In this document: positions 17,472 through 42,764 of the stretch, in pieces | Layout: each line of letters begins with the position of its first letter | How positions within the stretch are numbered: position 1 is the first letter of the stretch | Virus record (IMG/VR): IMGVR_UViG_3300008050_000095 | Span: 1-43,812 of that record | DNA from: a virus | Direction: 5' to 3' (one strand) | Length of the DNA: 43,812 bases | Position numbers and translations under genes: made by a program | The notes under the pieces: model-generated | Database searches by the model: none | What the model saw: the letters and a program-made list of their open reading frames with translations, nothing else | What the model was told of the DNA's origin: nothing

Positions 17472-17765
17472 ATGGAAGAAAGATGTGAATTTTGTGTTCC
17501 TCTCGAAAAGCGAGTTTCAAAAATGGAATCACAACTTGAGCAAGTTCAAGACTTGAGACTCGATATGAGATCAAACAAAGAGTCTCTCAAATACATAAAA
17601 GACAGTATTGAATCCTTGCCTGAGGTATACAAAAGACTTAATGAGATTGAGAACAATCTATCAATGTTGGCAGGATCAAGGAAAGCGTATATCTTTGTTT
17701 TTGGTCTTGCAGTAACAATGATTACTGGTCTTTCTGGAACAATCTTACATTTGATTACAGGTTAA
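17472..17765 (+). CDS. Holin-like coiled-coil protein with C-terminal membrane segment
   Basis: A 97-residue protein. The start chosen is ATG 17472, preceded by AAGGGGG seven bases away; the reading frame is open further upstream but without a good start. It begins MEERCEFCVPLEKRVSKMES, with a CxxC pair, then a long coiled coil (residues 10-65), and ends with one transmembrane helix at about 72-95 (IFVFGLAVTMITGLSGTILHL). This layout resembles XhlA-type lysis-associated proteins and some holins. The next gene, one base after the stop, is a lipoprotein, so the two probably act at the envelope together. Holin function is inferred. Confidence 0.7.
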   Translation: MEERCEFCVPLEKRVSKMESQLEQVQDLRLDMRSNKESLKYIKDSIESLPEVYKRLNEIENNLSMLAGSRKAYIFVFGLAVTMITGLSGTILHLITG

Positions 17766-17766
17766 A

Positions 17767-18873
17767 ATGAAGAATCTTGTTATTCTATTGATTGCGTATC
17801 TTGCTATTTCTTGTGCTCCAGACAACAAGCCGAAGAAAAAAGACCCTGTAGAAAGTTTTGAGATCACAGAGCAAACAGATCGGTACTTGAAGAGATTTGA
17901 AGTTGGATCAGAAAATTACGATCAATATAGCCTCCTTCTCCCAATAGAAAACGGAACTCATATCAAAAAAGGTGATGCACTCATTTTCAACTCAGTCGCA
18001 CTTGCTTCGATGTGTATGCTTGAAGGATTCGATTCAGAAAGAGTTGTGTTATGGGATGCAGTTAAAGGATTGCAGAAGAACGGGACATTTATCAGACATC
18101 CCGAATCACAAGCAAAACTCAGCATATCAAAAGATCAGCTAACAGGTTTTTTCTATTTGGCAGCAATCGCAAAGTACACAGATTGTGATCCTGTTGTGGG
18201 AGACATGCCCGCCATATTGGCTAGCCTCAAACAATATGGAGTCTCCCATGACTGGGAAATGGCAACAGGCAAAACAGATAGATCAACAACATTGTGGTTG
18301 GATTTCCACATCCTAAAAGCCATATACGGTATGTATGATTTAGAGAATAGTGATTTTGACTTGAGTAGATCAATTCATTATGTCGAAGCGTCATCCATCG
18401 TTGCTCCACAACTGGCGTATATGGCCTACCTATGTAGATCAGGAGAAGACAAGTTGGCATGTGTTGATGGGAAGCCTGTTCCCGTATTTGGGAACCACCT
18501 CCTTGCACTAACCATTGCGATTTTTGCGGTAGACTCCCGAGTCTCAAAACATCCGCTATACAAAAAATCAAAGACAAATGAGTGGCTCAAGAATATCTCC
18601 GAAGTTGGTGATGAGTTTGGATACCGCAATTGGTTGTTCTTTTCCATGTATTCCTACTTCACTGGGAAGGGAAAAGGATACAAAAACAACATAGATGATT
18701 TTCTTGTAAACTGGTTTCCAGATCAAACTGGAGAAGAGAAAGATCATGCGGTTTTGGGATGGGGTTGTTCAGAATATATCTGGCAACGGGTTCCTCCAGA
18801 AACTTGTTCAGGATCACCAGTGTACTACACAGGAATTGATTTCTTACATTTGTACTCTTGGAGCCGGATGTAG
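17767..18873 (+). CDS. Large phage lipoprotein, unrecognised; candidate lysis or exclusion factor
   Basis: A 368-residue protein with a clear lipoprotein signal: charged N-terminus MKN, hydrophobic core LVILLIAYLA, and AISC with the acylated cysteine at residue 16. Position -3 is Ala rather than Leu, so the lipobox is somewhat relaxed. Residue +2 is Ala, not Asp. The mature part (ALIFNSVALASMCMLEGF, LTGFFYLAAIAKYTDCDP, RNWLFFSMYSYFTG) is rich in helices with aromatic and cysteine residues, suggesting a helical toroid. Its C-terminus has WGCSEYIWQRVPPETCSG. No peptidoglycan hydrolase motif is recognised. It directly follows the holin-like gene in the usual endolysin/spanin slot, and no other endolysin candidate is visible in the window. 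Confidence 0.8.
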   Translation: MKNLVILLIAYLAISCAPDNKPKKKDPVESFEITEQTDRYLKRFEVGSENYDQYSLLLPIENGTHIKKGDALIFNSVALASMCMLEGFDSERVVLWDAVKGLQKNGTFIRHPESQAKLSISKDQLTGFFYLAAIAKYTDCDPVVGDMPAILASLKQYGVSHDWEMATGKTDRSTTLWLDFHILKAIYGMYDLENSDFDLSRSIHYVEASSIVAPQLAYMAYLCRSGEDKLACVDGKPVPVFGNHLLALTIAIFAVDSRVSKHPLYKKSKTNEWLKNISEVGDEFGYRNWLFFSMYSYFTGKGKGYKNNIDDFLVNWFPDQTGEEKDHAVLGWGCSEYIWQRVPPETCSGSPVYYTGIDFLHLYSWSRM

Positions 18874-18901: not shown

Positions 18902-19066
18902 ATGGGAGAAGAAAAGCAGTTTCTTGATCTCCAAGCGAAATACTTGGAGAGCAAGGTGAAGGAAGTTAAAAAGAAAAAACACAACTCCTTCATCAAACGA
19001 TGGATCAAAAAACATGCGTTAGAGGTTCGAGACTTCTATTCTTTCATAAAGAAAAACGAAGATTAA
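18902..19066 (+). CDS. 54-residue basic protein at the end of the late operon
   Basis: ATG 18902 to TAA 19064-19066, preceded by GGGGGATGAGA. The product begins MGEEKQFLDLQAKYLESKVK and continues with a lysine-rich helix (EVKKKKHNSFIKRWIKKHAL) to the end EVRDFYSFIKKNED. It is highly basic and amphipathic. No family recognised. It is the last rightward gene, and its stop codon overlaps the stop of the convergent leftward gene inside the palindrome GATTAATC. Confidence 0.65.
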   Translation: MGEEKQFLDLQAKYLESKVKEVKKKKHNSFIKRWIKKHALEVRDFYSFIKKNED

Positions 19067-19275
19067 TCCTCATTGTTTCGCCTCTTGTAATACACGTCAA
19101 TATCTACACCAAAAAACTTTGTGTCATACATTTCAATAACAGTCGCTTCTTTGTATTCCGATGGAACTGTTGAAATTGATGACCAAAGCTTATTGATGAA
19201 TGGAACCAGCTTTCTTGGAACATCCATTTCAAACCGATCCCGATACACTGTTACCTTTTCAAAATCATCTCCCAT
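19063..19275 (-). CDS. Last gene of the leftward operon, unrecognised
   Basis: A 70-residue protein (MGDDFEKVTVYRDRFEMDVP ... YYKRRNNED). I place the start at 19275 because GGAG lies seven bases upstream and this gives an 11-base overlap with the preceding gene, as elsewhere in the operon. An earlier ATG at 19326 would add 17 residues but has a poor ribosome binding site. The composition is mixed alpha/beta without recognisable motifs. Its stop overlaps that of the convergent rightward gene. Confidence 0.65.
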   Translation of the reverse strand: MGDDFEKVTVYRDRFEMDVPRKLVPFINKLWSSISTVPSEYKEATVIEMYDTKFFGVDIDVYYKRRNNED

Positions 19276-19459
19276 ATGGAACTCCGGACCGCCTAAAGAC
19301 CAAAGACACAAAGTCCCTTTTCCCATTTACATACTCATCAACATCATTACAAACTGGATCAAGTTCAAAAACAATCTCCCGTATTTCGTCTTCAATGCGT
19401 TTCAGTCGATCAATCGCACACTGGACACACCCCTCTATTTTACAAAATTCGATACACAT
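19265..19459 (-). CDS. Small cysteine-containing protein, unrecognised
   Basis: A 64-residue protein with AAGGGG upstream of ATG. It begins MCIEFCKIEGCVQCAIDRLK, with four cysteines in the first 14 residues, which could bind a metal, followed by a helix (RIEDEIREIVFEL). It lies 29 bases after the RuvC-like gene and overlaps the next gene. Function unknown. Confidence 0.65.
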   Translation of the reverse strand: MCIEFCKIEGCVQCAIDRLKRIEDEIREIVFELDPVCNDVDEYVNGKRDFVSLVFRRSGVPYGR

Positions 19460-19488: not shown

Positions 19489-19941
19489 TCAGCTAACCGC
19501 AATCATAATTGCCTCCGCACGATCAACGTCTTTCTTTCTCTTCAGTAATGGTATCAAATTTGGGTACATTTTCAAGACTGCTAACCTGGATGCGTCTTTT
19601 GGCATGTTTATAAGGCCAAAATGCTTTTTCCATTGGGAGGGCAACACCATTTTTGGCTCCAGGAACAGTCTAGAAATAGATACTGCAGTATAAAATGCTC
19701 CCATGAAACGTCCGGAACTCACAACACCCTGCTTTGGCATTGTGTGAACAATCTCAATGGTTATGGATTCCATCTCTTCTTTCTTTGCATCCAACATCTG
19801 ATAAAGAGCAACCCCATCCACCATGCGAACATCACTCACAGACCAAGGCTGAATCATTGTTGGCATGTCTTCGACTTCAATTCTGTCATCATAAACGAAT
19901 GCTATTGCTCCATTCAAGCCAGGGTCGATTCCTATTCGCAT
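19489..19941 (-). CDS. ruvC: RuvC-like Holliday junction resolvase
   Basis: A 150-residue RNase H-fold nuclease. The first strand MRIGIDPGLNGAIAF supplies the catalytic Asp at residue 6; the second acid is in TIEIVHTMP (E63); the C-terminal acids are in KKDVDRAEAIMIA (D138/D140 and E143). The central QGVVSSGRFMGAFYTAVSIS segment and PSQWKKHFGL match phage and cellular RuvC enzymes. It would cleave branched DNA made during recombination or before packaging. GAGGAGTAAT precedes the start. It follows the polymerase gene, consistent with a replication role. Confidence 0.88.
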   Translation of the reverse strand: MRIGIDPGLNGAIAFVYDDRIEVEDMPTMIQPWSVSDVRMVDGVALYQMLDAKKEEMESITIEIVHTMPKQGVVSSGRFMGAFYTAVSISRLFLEPKMVLPSQWKKHFGLINMPKDASRLAVLKMYPNLIPLLKRKKDVDRAEAIMIAVS

Positions 19942-32173: not shown

Positions 32174-35020
32174 TTACTCATCAACTCGAATCACACGCCA
32201 TTGTGCAACCGAGTACCCTTCTTCTCGGATCAACTTATACCCCCTCAGAATGAAATCTTTCATTCCCAAGATGAATCTCCCAAGCGTTTTGATATTCTGA
32301 ACAGCTTTCTCGTTGAATGCATCTGTGATTGCATGTCGAAAATCATCTCCAGATGAATCAACTCCGATTGTTTTCAATCCAAGATTGTGCCCCTCAATCA
32401 ATTTCATGATATCTTTCGTTTTGAATGGATTGTTCCCAAAAGTATTGTGCAACATCTCAAGCAATTCCCCTTTTGCGATTGCTTCATCATCAAGAAAATC
32501 GTTCCGATCAAAAACATCCAGTAGATCATGTCCGGAGACTTCAAGCAACGGAATCCGAACAAACTTATTCCACTCTTTGAATCGTGCGGATGAGTCGTAT
32601 TTATCGTAATCAATATTCTTTCCTGCAGTCACAATGGAAAGGACTGCACTGATGATCCTTTTTCGATTCTCCATTGCCCATTGTCCAATATCTGTTCTGT
32701 TGAACTTCCGGAACTCTGGACGCTCCATTGATGGAACGATCCTGATCGGAAGAATCCGGGTTGCAAAGTCACCTTTGAAAACAATATTGTTCCCAGTGAA
32801 CAACCATAGGACTCCGGAAGGAACCTCCTCAGTTTCGTTTGATCCAAGTTTTCTTCTGCTGTAGGTTCCAGATGTCATTGCCTTCGCAAGCTCATTCGAC
32901 TGGATTGCAGCATCTTTTTTGATATTGTAAAAGAGAACACAACTGTGTCCTTCCCTCAAGATTGCGAGCAAATGTTTTCCGAGTTCTTCATCGTTATCAC
33001 TCCAGCCTGTCGCAGCAACTGGTCTGTTGTACATTGAGTATGACAATAGTTGAGCCAAAGTCGTCTTTCCGGATGATGGCTTTGGAGAAACGATTGCAAA
33101 TCCTGGCATCCCATTGTCACCAATGACATATGGCCTTTGGATTGCGGTCATGAACATTCCAACTGCTGCAGCCCTATCTAAGTCTGTTTGGAATGGGAAC
33201 TCTGCAAGTACATTGTTTGCAAGATAATCATATGCTTCTTTTGGATCAGTAAGAGTGATTTTCAACTTCTTATGAAGGACCGCATAAAGACCCGTATTTG
33301 GATCATAACCACTCTTCTCAACAGGTTTCCAAGTGTCATCAATAAAAGGATGCTCAACGATTCCGGACAGTGGCTTCCACTTTGCTCCATACATCCTTGG
33401 GATCGCATTCAGGATTGAATCAGGACACACAATTTCACTTCCTTTTTCTGAAAGAAAAACACAGTCTTTCTCGGCCCTAGAACGAATCACACCAACTGGA
33501 TGCGAAATATCATGGATGACAGGCATCTCAGGATAATCATTCATCATCTGGCCTTTCTTTGTGATCTGTCTGATCGTCTTTGGAGTCGAGTATTCGACAA
33601 CAGAGATTGTGTTCCCAAGTCGGTACACTTCCGGCTTTTTCTTAGACTCAGCCATAATCTTGCAAATTTGCTCAGTTGCAGCACCATATCCAGAATTTGA
33701 AATTTCTACTTCGTAAATGTCCTGAGCTTTACGCTCCTCAGTCTTTTTTTTACGAGCAAGGTCTGCAAGCTCATCTTCCTTTTCCATCTTCGCAAGTTTG
33801 ACATCTTCGCTGATTGCTCTTGTTCCGAATCCAGTCTTTTGCTCAATGGCCCGCACCAATTGCTTCAGTTCGACTCCATGAAACCCAACAAGTCTTTTTG
33901 CAAATCCGCTTGTGACTTCGATGATATTTGATGTGTCAATCCAATCAACCACTTCTTCAAAACTTGGCTTCCCAACAATGTCTACCGCAGACTCGACTGC
34001 TCTTGGGATGTCATCAAAGCGATTCTGCCAGTCATTGAGCCGATCTTCGTCATTCTCAATGTCTTTCTTTGCAACGAGCATAAACTCCTCAATGAGAGCT
34101 TTCACATCGTTCTTTGGAAGTCCTTTGTTCACAAGTGAGAGTGCTGTACTCCGTATTTGATCGTGAAAGTTTTCACTACTCATGATCTTGCGAATCGAAT
34201 CCGACATCGAATAAGTTTCTTGAACAGGTTGGTCCAAGTCCAGTCGAGTTAAGTTGCCAGCACTCTTGTTCAGAGGACCACTCTTGTAATCAATGTTTGG
34301 ATACCAATTCAGAAACTCATTTCCAACGTCATAGAACCCAACAAATTCATCATCATCAATTGGGTCACTACTCCCCAGGAAATTATTGTCATCAAGGCAA
34401 ATCCTTTTCATTGTGTAGATCGGCTGAGCACTCTTGTATACGGATGGATCAAGATACTCTGTTCCATTTGGTTTCCAATCTTTTGCCCACTTCATCATAA
34501 CCGTATTGTGAATCGTATGCTTCAGTCGGAAGAAAATATGAGCTTTCAACTTCTTTTCCTTTGTCAATCCTGCAGATGATGAGAATTGATATACGAAATT
34601 CACTTTGGAAAACTCATCAGGAAGTTCTTCTTTGATGAATTTTCTAATCATTTCCAAGCCACCATGATTTGGATACTCATCTGACTCTTCAAAAGAGTAT
34701 TTATCGACATCAATACAAAACCACTCAAGATTCTTATCTTTGATTGTTGGTGGTTCCCCTTGCCGACCTTCTCGACTCCTCCGCAACATCTTTGACAGGT
34801 CAACCCCTTCAATGAAATCACCATGAATCATAAAAACAGGCTTGTTGAGAACAGCTTTCAGAATCTTTGACAAGTCTTCCAGGTCATCACACTCTTGGCT
34901 GATCCCAGTAAAGTGCTTCATTAGCGGATAGTCGTTTTTCTTATCCCAAACGTCATCATACAGCTTGAATGTTTTTGTTGGTTTTTGCCCGCCAACTGGT
35001 TTCATAAAGTTAATCTTCAT
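32174..35020 (-). CDS. AEP-type primase with superfamily 3-like helicase domain
   Basis: A 948-residue replication initiator. The N-terminal part has archaeo-eukaryotic primase marks: WFCIDVDKY (D104, D106) and, after a gap, QFSSSAGLTKEKKLKAHIFF with the catalytic-type histidine H161. A charged linker lies at 405-435. The C-terminal ATPase has Walker A SPKPSSGKTTL (645-655) and VLFYNIKKDA as a likely Walker B region, followed by a sensor LWLFTGNNIVF (residues about 735-745). The tail (GYKLIREEGYSVAQWRVIRV) is a winged-helix-like end. It should prime and unwind at the origin, probably the repeat region at 37.4-37.9 kb. GAGG before ATG. Confidence 0.88.
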   Translation of the reverse strand: MKINFMKPVGGQKPTKTFKLYDDVWDKKNDYPLMKHFTGISQECDDLEDLSKILKAVLNKPVFMIHGDFIEGVDLSKMLRRSREGRQGEPPTIKDKNLEWFCIDVDKYSFEESDEYPNHGGLEMIRKFIKEELPDEFSKVNFVYQFSSSAGLTKEKKLKAHIFFRLKHTIHNTVMMKWAKDWKPNGTEYLDPSVYKSAQPIYTMKRICLDDNNFLGSSDPIDDDEFVGFYDVGNEFLNWYPNIDYKSGPLNKSAGNLTRLDLDQPVQETYSMSDSIRKIMSSENFHDQIRSTALSLVNKGLPKNDVKALIEEFMLVAKKDIENDEDRLNDWQNRFDDIPRAVESAVDIVGKPSFEEVVDWIDTSNIIEVTSGFAKRLVGFHGVELKQLVRAIEQKTGFGTRAISEDVKLAKMEKEDELADLARKKKTEERKAQDIYEVEISNSGYGAATEQICKIMAESKKKPEVYRLGNTISVVEYSTPKTIRQITKKGQMMNDYPEMPVIHDISHPVGVIRSRAEKDCVFLSEKGSEIVCPDSILNAIPRMYGAKWKPLSGIVEHPFIDDTWKPVEKSGYDPNTGLYAVLHKKLKITLTDPKEAYDYLANNVLAEFPFQTDLDRAAAVGMFMTAIQRPYVIGDNGMPGFAIVSPKPSSGKTTLAQLLSYSMYNRPVAATGWSDNDEELGKHLLAILREGHSCVLFYNIKKDAAIQSNELAKAMTSGTYSRRKLGSNETEEVPSGVLWLFTGNNIVFKGDFATRILPIRIVPSMERPEFRKFNRTDIGQWAMENRKRIISAVLSIVTAGKNIDYDKYDSSARFKEWNKFVRIPLLEVSGHDLLDVFDRNDFLDDEAIAKGELLEMLHNTFGNNPFKTKDIMKLIEGHNLGLKTIGVDSSGDDFRHAITDAFNEKAVQNIKTLGRFILGMKDFILRGYKLIREEGYSVAQWRVIRVDE

Positions 35021-42002: not shown

Positions 42003-42764
42003 CTAAAAATCAATGTACTGGTGTAGATCCTGACGTGTAAATCTTTTTACAAGCTTTGAGTCATACTTTAGATTTGAGTATGCTTCACAAGTTCTTTCAT
42101 ACCATTTTTCATCATAAAAGATTTCTAGGTATTGTTCGCCTGAGTCCTTGATATTTTGGAAAATTGACTTTCCAGAGATTCTGAATTCTCTTGAAAACTT
42201 CTTTTGAACTTCAATCATTGACTCAATCACTTTGTTTGTAGTTTCAAACTCGTTTTCCGCAAATTGAATCAAAATGTTTTTTGCTGATATTTTAGTTTGC
42301 TCCATGTTGTCTCCATTCAATTGTATATTCATCACGGTTTCTTCTTCTTCTTCTTCTTCTTCTTCTTCTTCTTCTTCTTCTTCTTCTTCTTCAAAAAACA
42401 TACTTTCTTCAAACTCAATCTTCTCAAGTTTTTCGAGTTCTGCTTCCCACCGTGGTATAGTGATAGATGGCTTCCCATCTCTTCTATATGACAAATTAGA
42501 GATTATGCTCTTTAATGTTCTGATTCTCTTTTGTCTTAGTGTTAGTGTTTTCGAGTAGAAAACGTTATTGTATGTAAATTCATTTTCCGCTGTTTTTTTG
42601 CGACGATTCATTGAAACAACAACAACTCCATTTTCCTCTAATATTTCCCGCAAGATTTGAGGAGTCAAAACACAACCAATTGTTTTGATTGTTCCGCAAA
42701 AGTGGTGCTCGTCTTTTGCGTTTTCTTCCAGTATGATTTTTGTGTTTTCGAGTAGGATTTCCAT
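42003..42764 (-). CDS. 253-residue protein with an 18-glutamate run
   Basis: MEILLENTKIILEENAKDEH, then TIGCVLTPQILREILEENGV and basic NRRKKTAENEF. Residues about 121-142 carry a run of 18 glutamates encoded by a pure GAA repeat; the second half (MNIQLNGDNMEQTKISAKNI onward) has ETTNKVIESMIEVQKKFSRE and looks like a separate helical domain. The run is an acidic linker of variable length by nature. An internal ATG at the start of the second half is possible. No family recognised. Confidence 0.75.
   Translation of the reverse strand: MEILLENTKIILEENAKDEHHFCGTIKTIGCVLTPQILREILEENGVVVVSMNRRKKTAENEFTYNNVFYSKTLTLRQKRIRTLKSIISNLSYRRDGKPSITIPRWEAELEKLEKIEFEESMFFEEEEEEEEEEEEEEEEEETVMNIQLNGDNMEQTKISAKNILIQFAENEFETTNKVIESMIEVQKKFSREFRISGKSIFQNIKDSGEQYLEIFYDEKWYERTCEAYSNLKYDSKLVKRFTRQDLHQYIDF
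42339..42392. repeat. (TTC)18 microsatellite
   Basis: Eighteen uninterrupted TTC units (GAA on the coding strand) inside the 42003-42764 gene. Length changes would keep the frame and alter the glutamate linker. Confidence 0.97.

Follow-up and report, generated by a model that had tools for sequence, protein, structure and literature searches.

Among described phage systems for breaching the outer envelope, two-component spanins have combined periplasmic lengths of 62-300 residues, none of 58 known u-spanins contains a periplasmic cysteine, and in ~13% of the tailed phage genomes surveyed a spanin could not be identified (PMC6139136). How spanin-less phages break the outer membrane is largely an open question, with short cationic disruptins representing one answer (PMC12819732). 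The phage lipoprotein described here shares features with several such systems. Like lambda Rz/Rz1 and T4 PseT.3/PseT.2, it pairs a predicted phage outer-membrane lipoprotein, encoded in or near a lysis cassette, with conserved cysteines that would lie in the periplasm; unlike them, it carries a 352-residue helical and probably globular domain, and has no recognisable i-spanin with an N-terminal transmembrane domain (TMD) with which its gene might be nested or overlap. Like the u-spanin T1 gp11, it is a lone lipoprotein whose gene, in one related genome, comes immediately after that of the endolysin, whereas it lacks a C-terminal TMD, contains cysteines and is predicted to be helical rather than beta. 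The accessory lysis esterase LysB of mycobacteriophages (PMC5707550) offers a parallel for a putative separate lysis protein directed at the outer layer and encoded in a lysis cassette, but it acts on the mycobacterial outer layer and shows no sequence relation to our protein. T5 Llp, T1 Cor and Rtp45 are also accessory phage outer-membrane lipoproteins, yet are very small, are made early and have no sequence match to it. Finally, PL5 lyases and other alpha/alpha toroids (PDB 7wxn, 7fhv, 4ce7) bear a weak fold resemblance to a low-confidence model of the protein, with which they share no sequence or profile match.

The DNA analysed (the window) comprises 43,812 nucleotides, positions 1 to 43,812 of IMG/VR record IMGVR_UViG_3300008050_000095. 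It is incomplete, covering part of a tailed-phage genome, and opens with head-tail connector genes. The tail module is of the contractile, Mu-like kind (Baseplate_J, Gp48, tail chaperone), and the strand opposite to the tail genes carries a replication module in which the phage encodes a DNA polymerase III alpha subunit of its own. The genes for terminase, portal, protease and major capsid protein are not in the window; they belong to the missing segment, where the related genome G001 has its lysis genes. No integrase was recognised. The nearest cultured DnaE relatives belong to phages of Cronobacter, Vibrio, Serratia and Erwinia and are the basis for assigning a Gram-negative host; the window phage and its relatives are probably lytic phages of Gram-negative bacteria. 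Alongside the phage-encoded DnaE, the window encodes a 948-aa primase/polymerase-like protein (32174-35020, minus strand; PHROG_19930, 4e-20), as well as a protein with ~18 consecutive glutamates, a simple repeat and possible slippage site (42003-42764, minus strand).

The lipoprotein gene (17767..18873, plus strand) encodes 368 residues, of which the first 16 form a signal peptide and lipobox (17767..17814, plus strand), identified by direct reading and by lipobox scan. The signal peptide, MKNLVILLIAYLAISC, has the form of a lipoprotein signal and ends in LAISC, upholding the AISC lipobox of the original prediction; processing would follow MKNLVILLIAYLAIS^C16, leaving alanine at +2. The A at -3 lies slightly outside the [LVI][ASTVI][GAS]C consensus, and we accept the lipobox nonetheless because a homologue has LTTSC with the acceptor cysteine conserved. 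Under the usual enterobacterial rule, alanine at +2 leads to outer-membrane sorting, and with no Asp at this position we infer an outer-membrane destination. A simple lipobox pattern scan identified no other lipoprotein ORF in the window. The mature part comprises 352 residues (40.0 kDa, pI 5.5), confirming a large mature domain while correcting an earlier count of 350, and contains 9 Trp, 20 Tyr and six Cys in addition to the lipidated one. Secondary structure prediction gave helix almost throughout, in agreement with the earlier description of the protein as helical. The sole hydropathy peak is internal (residues 237-255) and the C-terminus has none, such that a second transmembrane (TM) segment is not convincing. 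The protein matched no Pfam, PHROG or NCBIfam family and no PDB chain by sequence; tblastn returned nothing at E 10 among 50,697 phage records and no meaningful match in phages and plasmids.

Related phages, gathered through baseplate, DnaE and RuvC searches on the basis of their common tail and replication modules, revealed a homologue in G001 (35% identity over 350 residues, E 6e-64; blastp of G001 ORFs against the window), likewise a lipoprotein, with lipobox LTTSC. All seven cysteines are conserved between the two proteins, including the lipidated residue and all six others. A third homologue, 5′-truncated, was found by profile scan in a further phage, G012 (29% identity, E 5e-28), and retains all five cysteines of the overlapping part. 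His244 and Tyr295 are invariant in the three copies; Asn243, preceding the histidine, is present in two and replaced by Ala in the third. Given the 35% identity over 350 residues and the conservation of all seven cysteines in another phage, the ORF is a real gene rather than a chance reading frame. The full cysteine conservation in G001 and in the overlapping G012 part further indicates that the family is genuine and under constraint, and its sequences form a new, three-member orphan family that is rare in the collection searched. The conserved pattern fits an oxidising periplasmic location. Single-sequence scans of viral and genome contigs returned no close homologue, a DNA scan of the whole viral collection for the conserved motif I-W-Q-R-x5-C-x2-S-x5-G-x-D-F recovered only the two known relatives, and a terminase-anchored scan for further lysis cassettes yielded loci of other phages with no homologue ahead of terminase. 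The related records G002, G003 and G004, two of which are fragments, carry no homologue; the gene is therefore accessory.

In the window, the 3′ end of the late plus-strand operon consists of a tail fibre assembly chaperone gene (PF16778; 17087..17422, plus strand), a gene for a 97-aa coiled-coil protein whose C-terminal TM segment spans about residues 73-92 (17472..17765, plus strand; ribosome-binding site AAGGGGGA), the lipoprotein gene and possibly a 54-aa basic ORF (18902..19066, plus strand). Beyond it lie convergent genes, including one at 19063-19326 and a RuvC/resolvase-like gene, named from sequence features, that served as a synteny anchor with the relatives (19489..19941, minus strand). 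The lipoprotein does directly follow the coiled-coil/TM protein, as originally described, with one nucleotide separating the stop at 17765 from the start at 17767; position 17472, previously taken as the beginning of the feature, is the start of the neighbour. A firm identification of this neighbour as a holin could not be sustained: it has a single TM segment, and its match to the holin profile PHROG_689 (E 0.003) is level with structural coiled-coil matches.

The one-nucleotide spacing, together with the pairing of a coiled coil and a lipoprotein, raises the question of whether the two products form an unusual two-component spanin, with the 17472-17765 protein as inner-membrane partner and the lipoprotein as o-spanin. 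The positional counterpart of the neighbour in G001, which has an N-proximal TM segment followed by a coil, would suit such an arrangement. An o-spanin, however, is expected to have an i-spanin partner with an N-terminal TMD and a periplasmic coil, and the window neighbour has its coil but a C-terminal TM segment, and lacks a signal that would export the coil. The lipoprotein also exceeds the combined 62-300 periplasmic residues of two-component spanins, the two genes are not adjacent in G001, and coil genes occur in relatives that have no lipoprotein at all. We therefore regard a two-component spanin as very unlikely.

The 54-aa ORF lies between the lipoprotein gene and the convergent gene 19063-19326 and ends where the latter ends. 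Its coding status is uncertain; the product would be basic (pI 9.7, net charge +6), with an amphipathic moment of 0.56, and several other window ORFs are equally basic. Searches for relatives found none. It could represent a disruptin-like peptide, or nothing.

Comparison of the same region across relatives bears on a further element of the original prediction, which had placed the lipoprotein in an endolysin slot. A coiled-coil/TM gene stands alone at the late-operon end, facing convergent genes, in G001, G002 and G009, and lies close to that end in G007; these genes hold a position in common with the window gene, are unrelated to it in sequence and are accompanied by no endolysin. An amidase together with a lipoprotein occurs there in G004 alone, a more distant relative. 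Because of this distribution, the late-operon end is, as far as gene content indicates, an accessory site able to carry lysis genes and not a fixed endolysin slot.

Within the window itself, lysis families were absent from 46 further ORFs searched against Pfam and from the best 25 of the 42 PHROG families listed, and dedicated amidase_2, M15_3 and phage lysozyme searches were negative. The earlier observation that the window shows no recognisable endolysin or spanin thus holds, but it says little about the phage, because the window is a fragment and the G001 endolysin sits just ahead of terminase, in the segment missing here. The lipoprotein itself was rejected as an endolysin, having no muralytic domain in Pfam, PHROG or NCBIfam and no amidase_2, M15_3 or lysozyme match, and was rejected as a u-spanin, since it has no C-terminal TM segment, like its homologue, and has six conserved cysteines in the mature part.

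G001 provides the most informative context. The ends of its 57.7-kb contig split a primase-like gene between positions equivalent to residues 318 and 322 of the window protein, from which we conclude that the contig is an essentially whole, circularly permuted genome. At the start of its late operon lie, in order, a 123-aa M15_3 endolysin gene (PF08291, 2e-13; PHROG_894 endolysin, 2e-20), the lipoprotein homologue and a gene for a 68-aa single-TM protein, followed by terminase. The start codon of the homologue overlaps the endolysin stop codon (ATGA), and the homologue is the only lipoprotein that the simple lipobox pattern scan detected in this near-complete genome. Intergenic DNA ahead of the cassette (L060:11780-12080) is rich in degenerate copies of a motif resembling TGTTnGTATAnnCnAA and has the look of iterons or regulatory repeats.

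G012 is a different type of phage, whose tail tube and portal genes are unrelated, and its homologue lies ~7 kb upstream of an M15-type endolysin (PHROG_894, 9e-8) on the same strand. The intervening genes encode secreted, membrane and response-regulator proteins. A protein with a response-regulator receiver domain (L075:1874-2401, plus strand; PF00072, 1.5e-24) and a second similar-looking one (L075:4172-4714, plus strand) were noted within a phage structural region that also encodes secreted and membrane proteins. The neighbours in G012, combined with the patchy distribution of the gene and its different positions in the three phages, would also suit a moron-like accessory lipoprotein that has no part in lysis and plays another role at the host envelope, such as host takeover, anti-defence or envelope stabilisation. 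The translational overlap with the G001 endolysin and the placement on the late strand point instead to lysis, and we consider a moron-like function rather improbable.

The same accessory character, with a position that differs between phages, is also seen for superinfection-exclusion genes. The lipoprotein would in that case bind a receptor in the outer membrane on its periplasmic face, blocking adsorption to infected cells or debris, much as the known exclusion proteins T5 Llp and Rtp45 are periplasmic outer-membrane lipoproteins, with a disulfide in Llp (PMC9586334, PMC12685063). These known examples, however, are tiny (about 6 kDa for Rtp45) and reported to be made early, in contrast to a 40-kDa protein encoded on the late strand; the G001 copy adjoins an endolysin, and the lipoprotein has no match to the Cor/Llp exclusion families in PHROGs. 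Exclusion is accordingly unlikely in our assessment; if true, it would involve a lipoprotein far larger than the small known examples cited (T5 Llp, Rtp45).

Our preferred, and still tentative, reading is a late outer-membrane lipoprotein that assists envelope breakdown. It is favoured because of the linkage to the endolysin, the status of the homologue as sole lipoprotein in G001 and the lack of a recognised spanin; caution is warranted because the position varies, the distribution is accessory and the lipobox is the only spanin hallmark present. The fold model is also poor, and the searches gave no homologue of known function. Endolysin adjacency was seen once, in G001, whereas the late operon of the window carries the gene at its other end and the G012 genes are ~7 kb apart. 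The lysis role that had been proposed from the window thus gains support from the G001 overlap with an M15 endolysin, and that support is incomplete. In such a scheme, the protein would be expressed late in infection and leave the cytoplasm through Sec; after lipidation at Cys16 it would reach the outer membrane, from which an all-helical domain stabilised by disulfides would project into the periplasm. Once the peptidoglycan had been cut by the endolysin, the lipoprotein would contribute to weakening or opening the outer envelope, either alongside spanins or in their place, and might do so by binding an envelope glycan or acting on one. The timing, fold and disulfides in this scheme are inferred, as are export and the outer-membrane location. 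A large lipoprotein co-translated with the endolysin, and the sole one detected in G001, is a concrete candidate for the agent of spanin-less outer-membrane breakage.

A fold search had been suggested, with alpha/alpha toroids in mind. AlphaFold2 with an alignment of the three sequences produced an all-helical model (pLDDT 52, pTM 0.52), for which every Foldseek match had an E-value >1 and the highest probabilities fell mainly on alpha/alpha-toroid proteins: the PL5 lyases 7wxn (0.44, E 1.2) and 7fhv (0.23), transcobalamin (0.35), GH105 (0.33) and GH76 (0.25). A single-sequence model, used as negative control, reached pLDDT 33 and had no alpha/alpha-toroid match >0.09, and a search of a viral fold library gave no match. 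The resemblance is thus a hint from a low-confidence model, weakly supporting the toroid suggestion. Membership of the PL5 polysaccharide lyases was rejected, PF05426 giving no match at E 10 in the window, G001 or G012 proteins.

These toroid matches, which the single-sequence control does not reproduce, with the invariant His244 and Tyr295 and an Asn243 found in two of three copies, would be compatible with an outer-membrane-anchored carbohydrate-active enzyme or glycan binder that clears capsule, exopolysaccharide or periplasmic glycan, and so aids release or spread rather than lysis. The E-values, the model confidence, the failure of PF05426 and of every other Pfam family, and the Ala at position 243 of the third copy all argue against it, and we rate it as fairly unlikely. 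A narrower form of the envelope-breakdown reading would make the protein a new class of lysis protein that disrupts the outer membrane: a large alpha/alpha-toroid lipoprotein, rich in disulfides and anchored in the outer membrane, would take the place of spanins, perhaps as an enzyme, in phages of Gram-negative hosts with no recognisable spanin. We regard this form as doubtful.

Two other lipoproteins were noted among the relatives. In G004, an Amidase_2 endolysin gene is followed by one for a lipoprotein of 136 aa that weakly matches Rz-like spanins (L017:15037-15914, minus strand), a candidate small lysis lipoprotein. In G003, an ORF (L065:3414-4073, minus strand) combines a lipoprotein signal, LILTGC, with an astacin-type zinc protease motif, HEVFHVLGFPHEHQRPDRD, marking its product, by motif only, as a putative lipoprotein metalloprotease.
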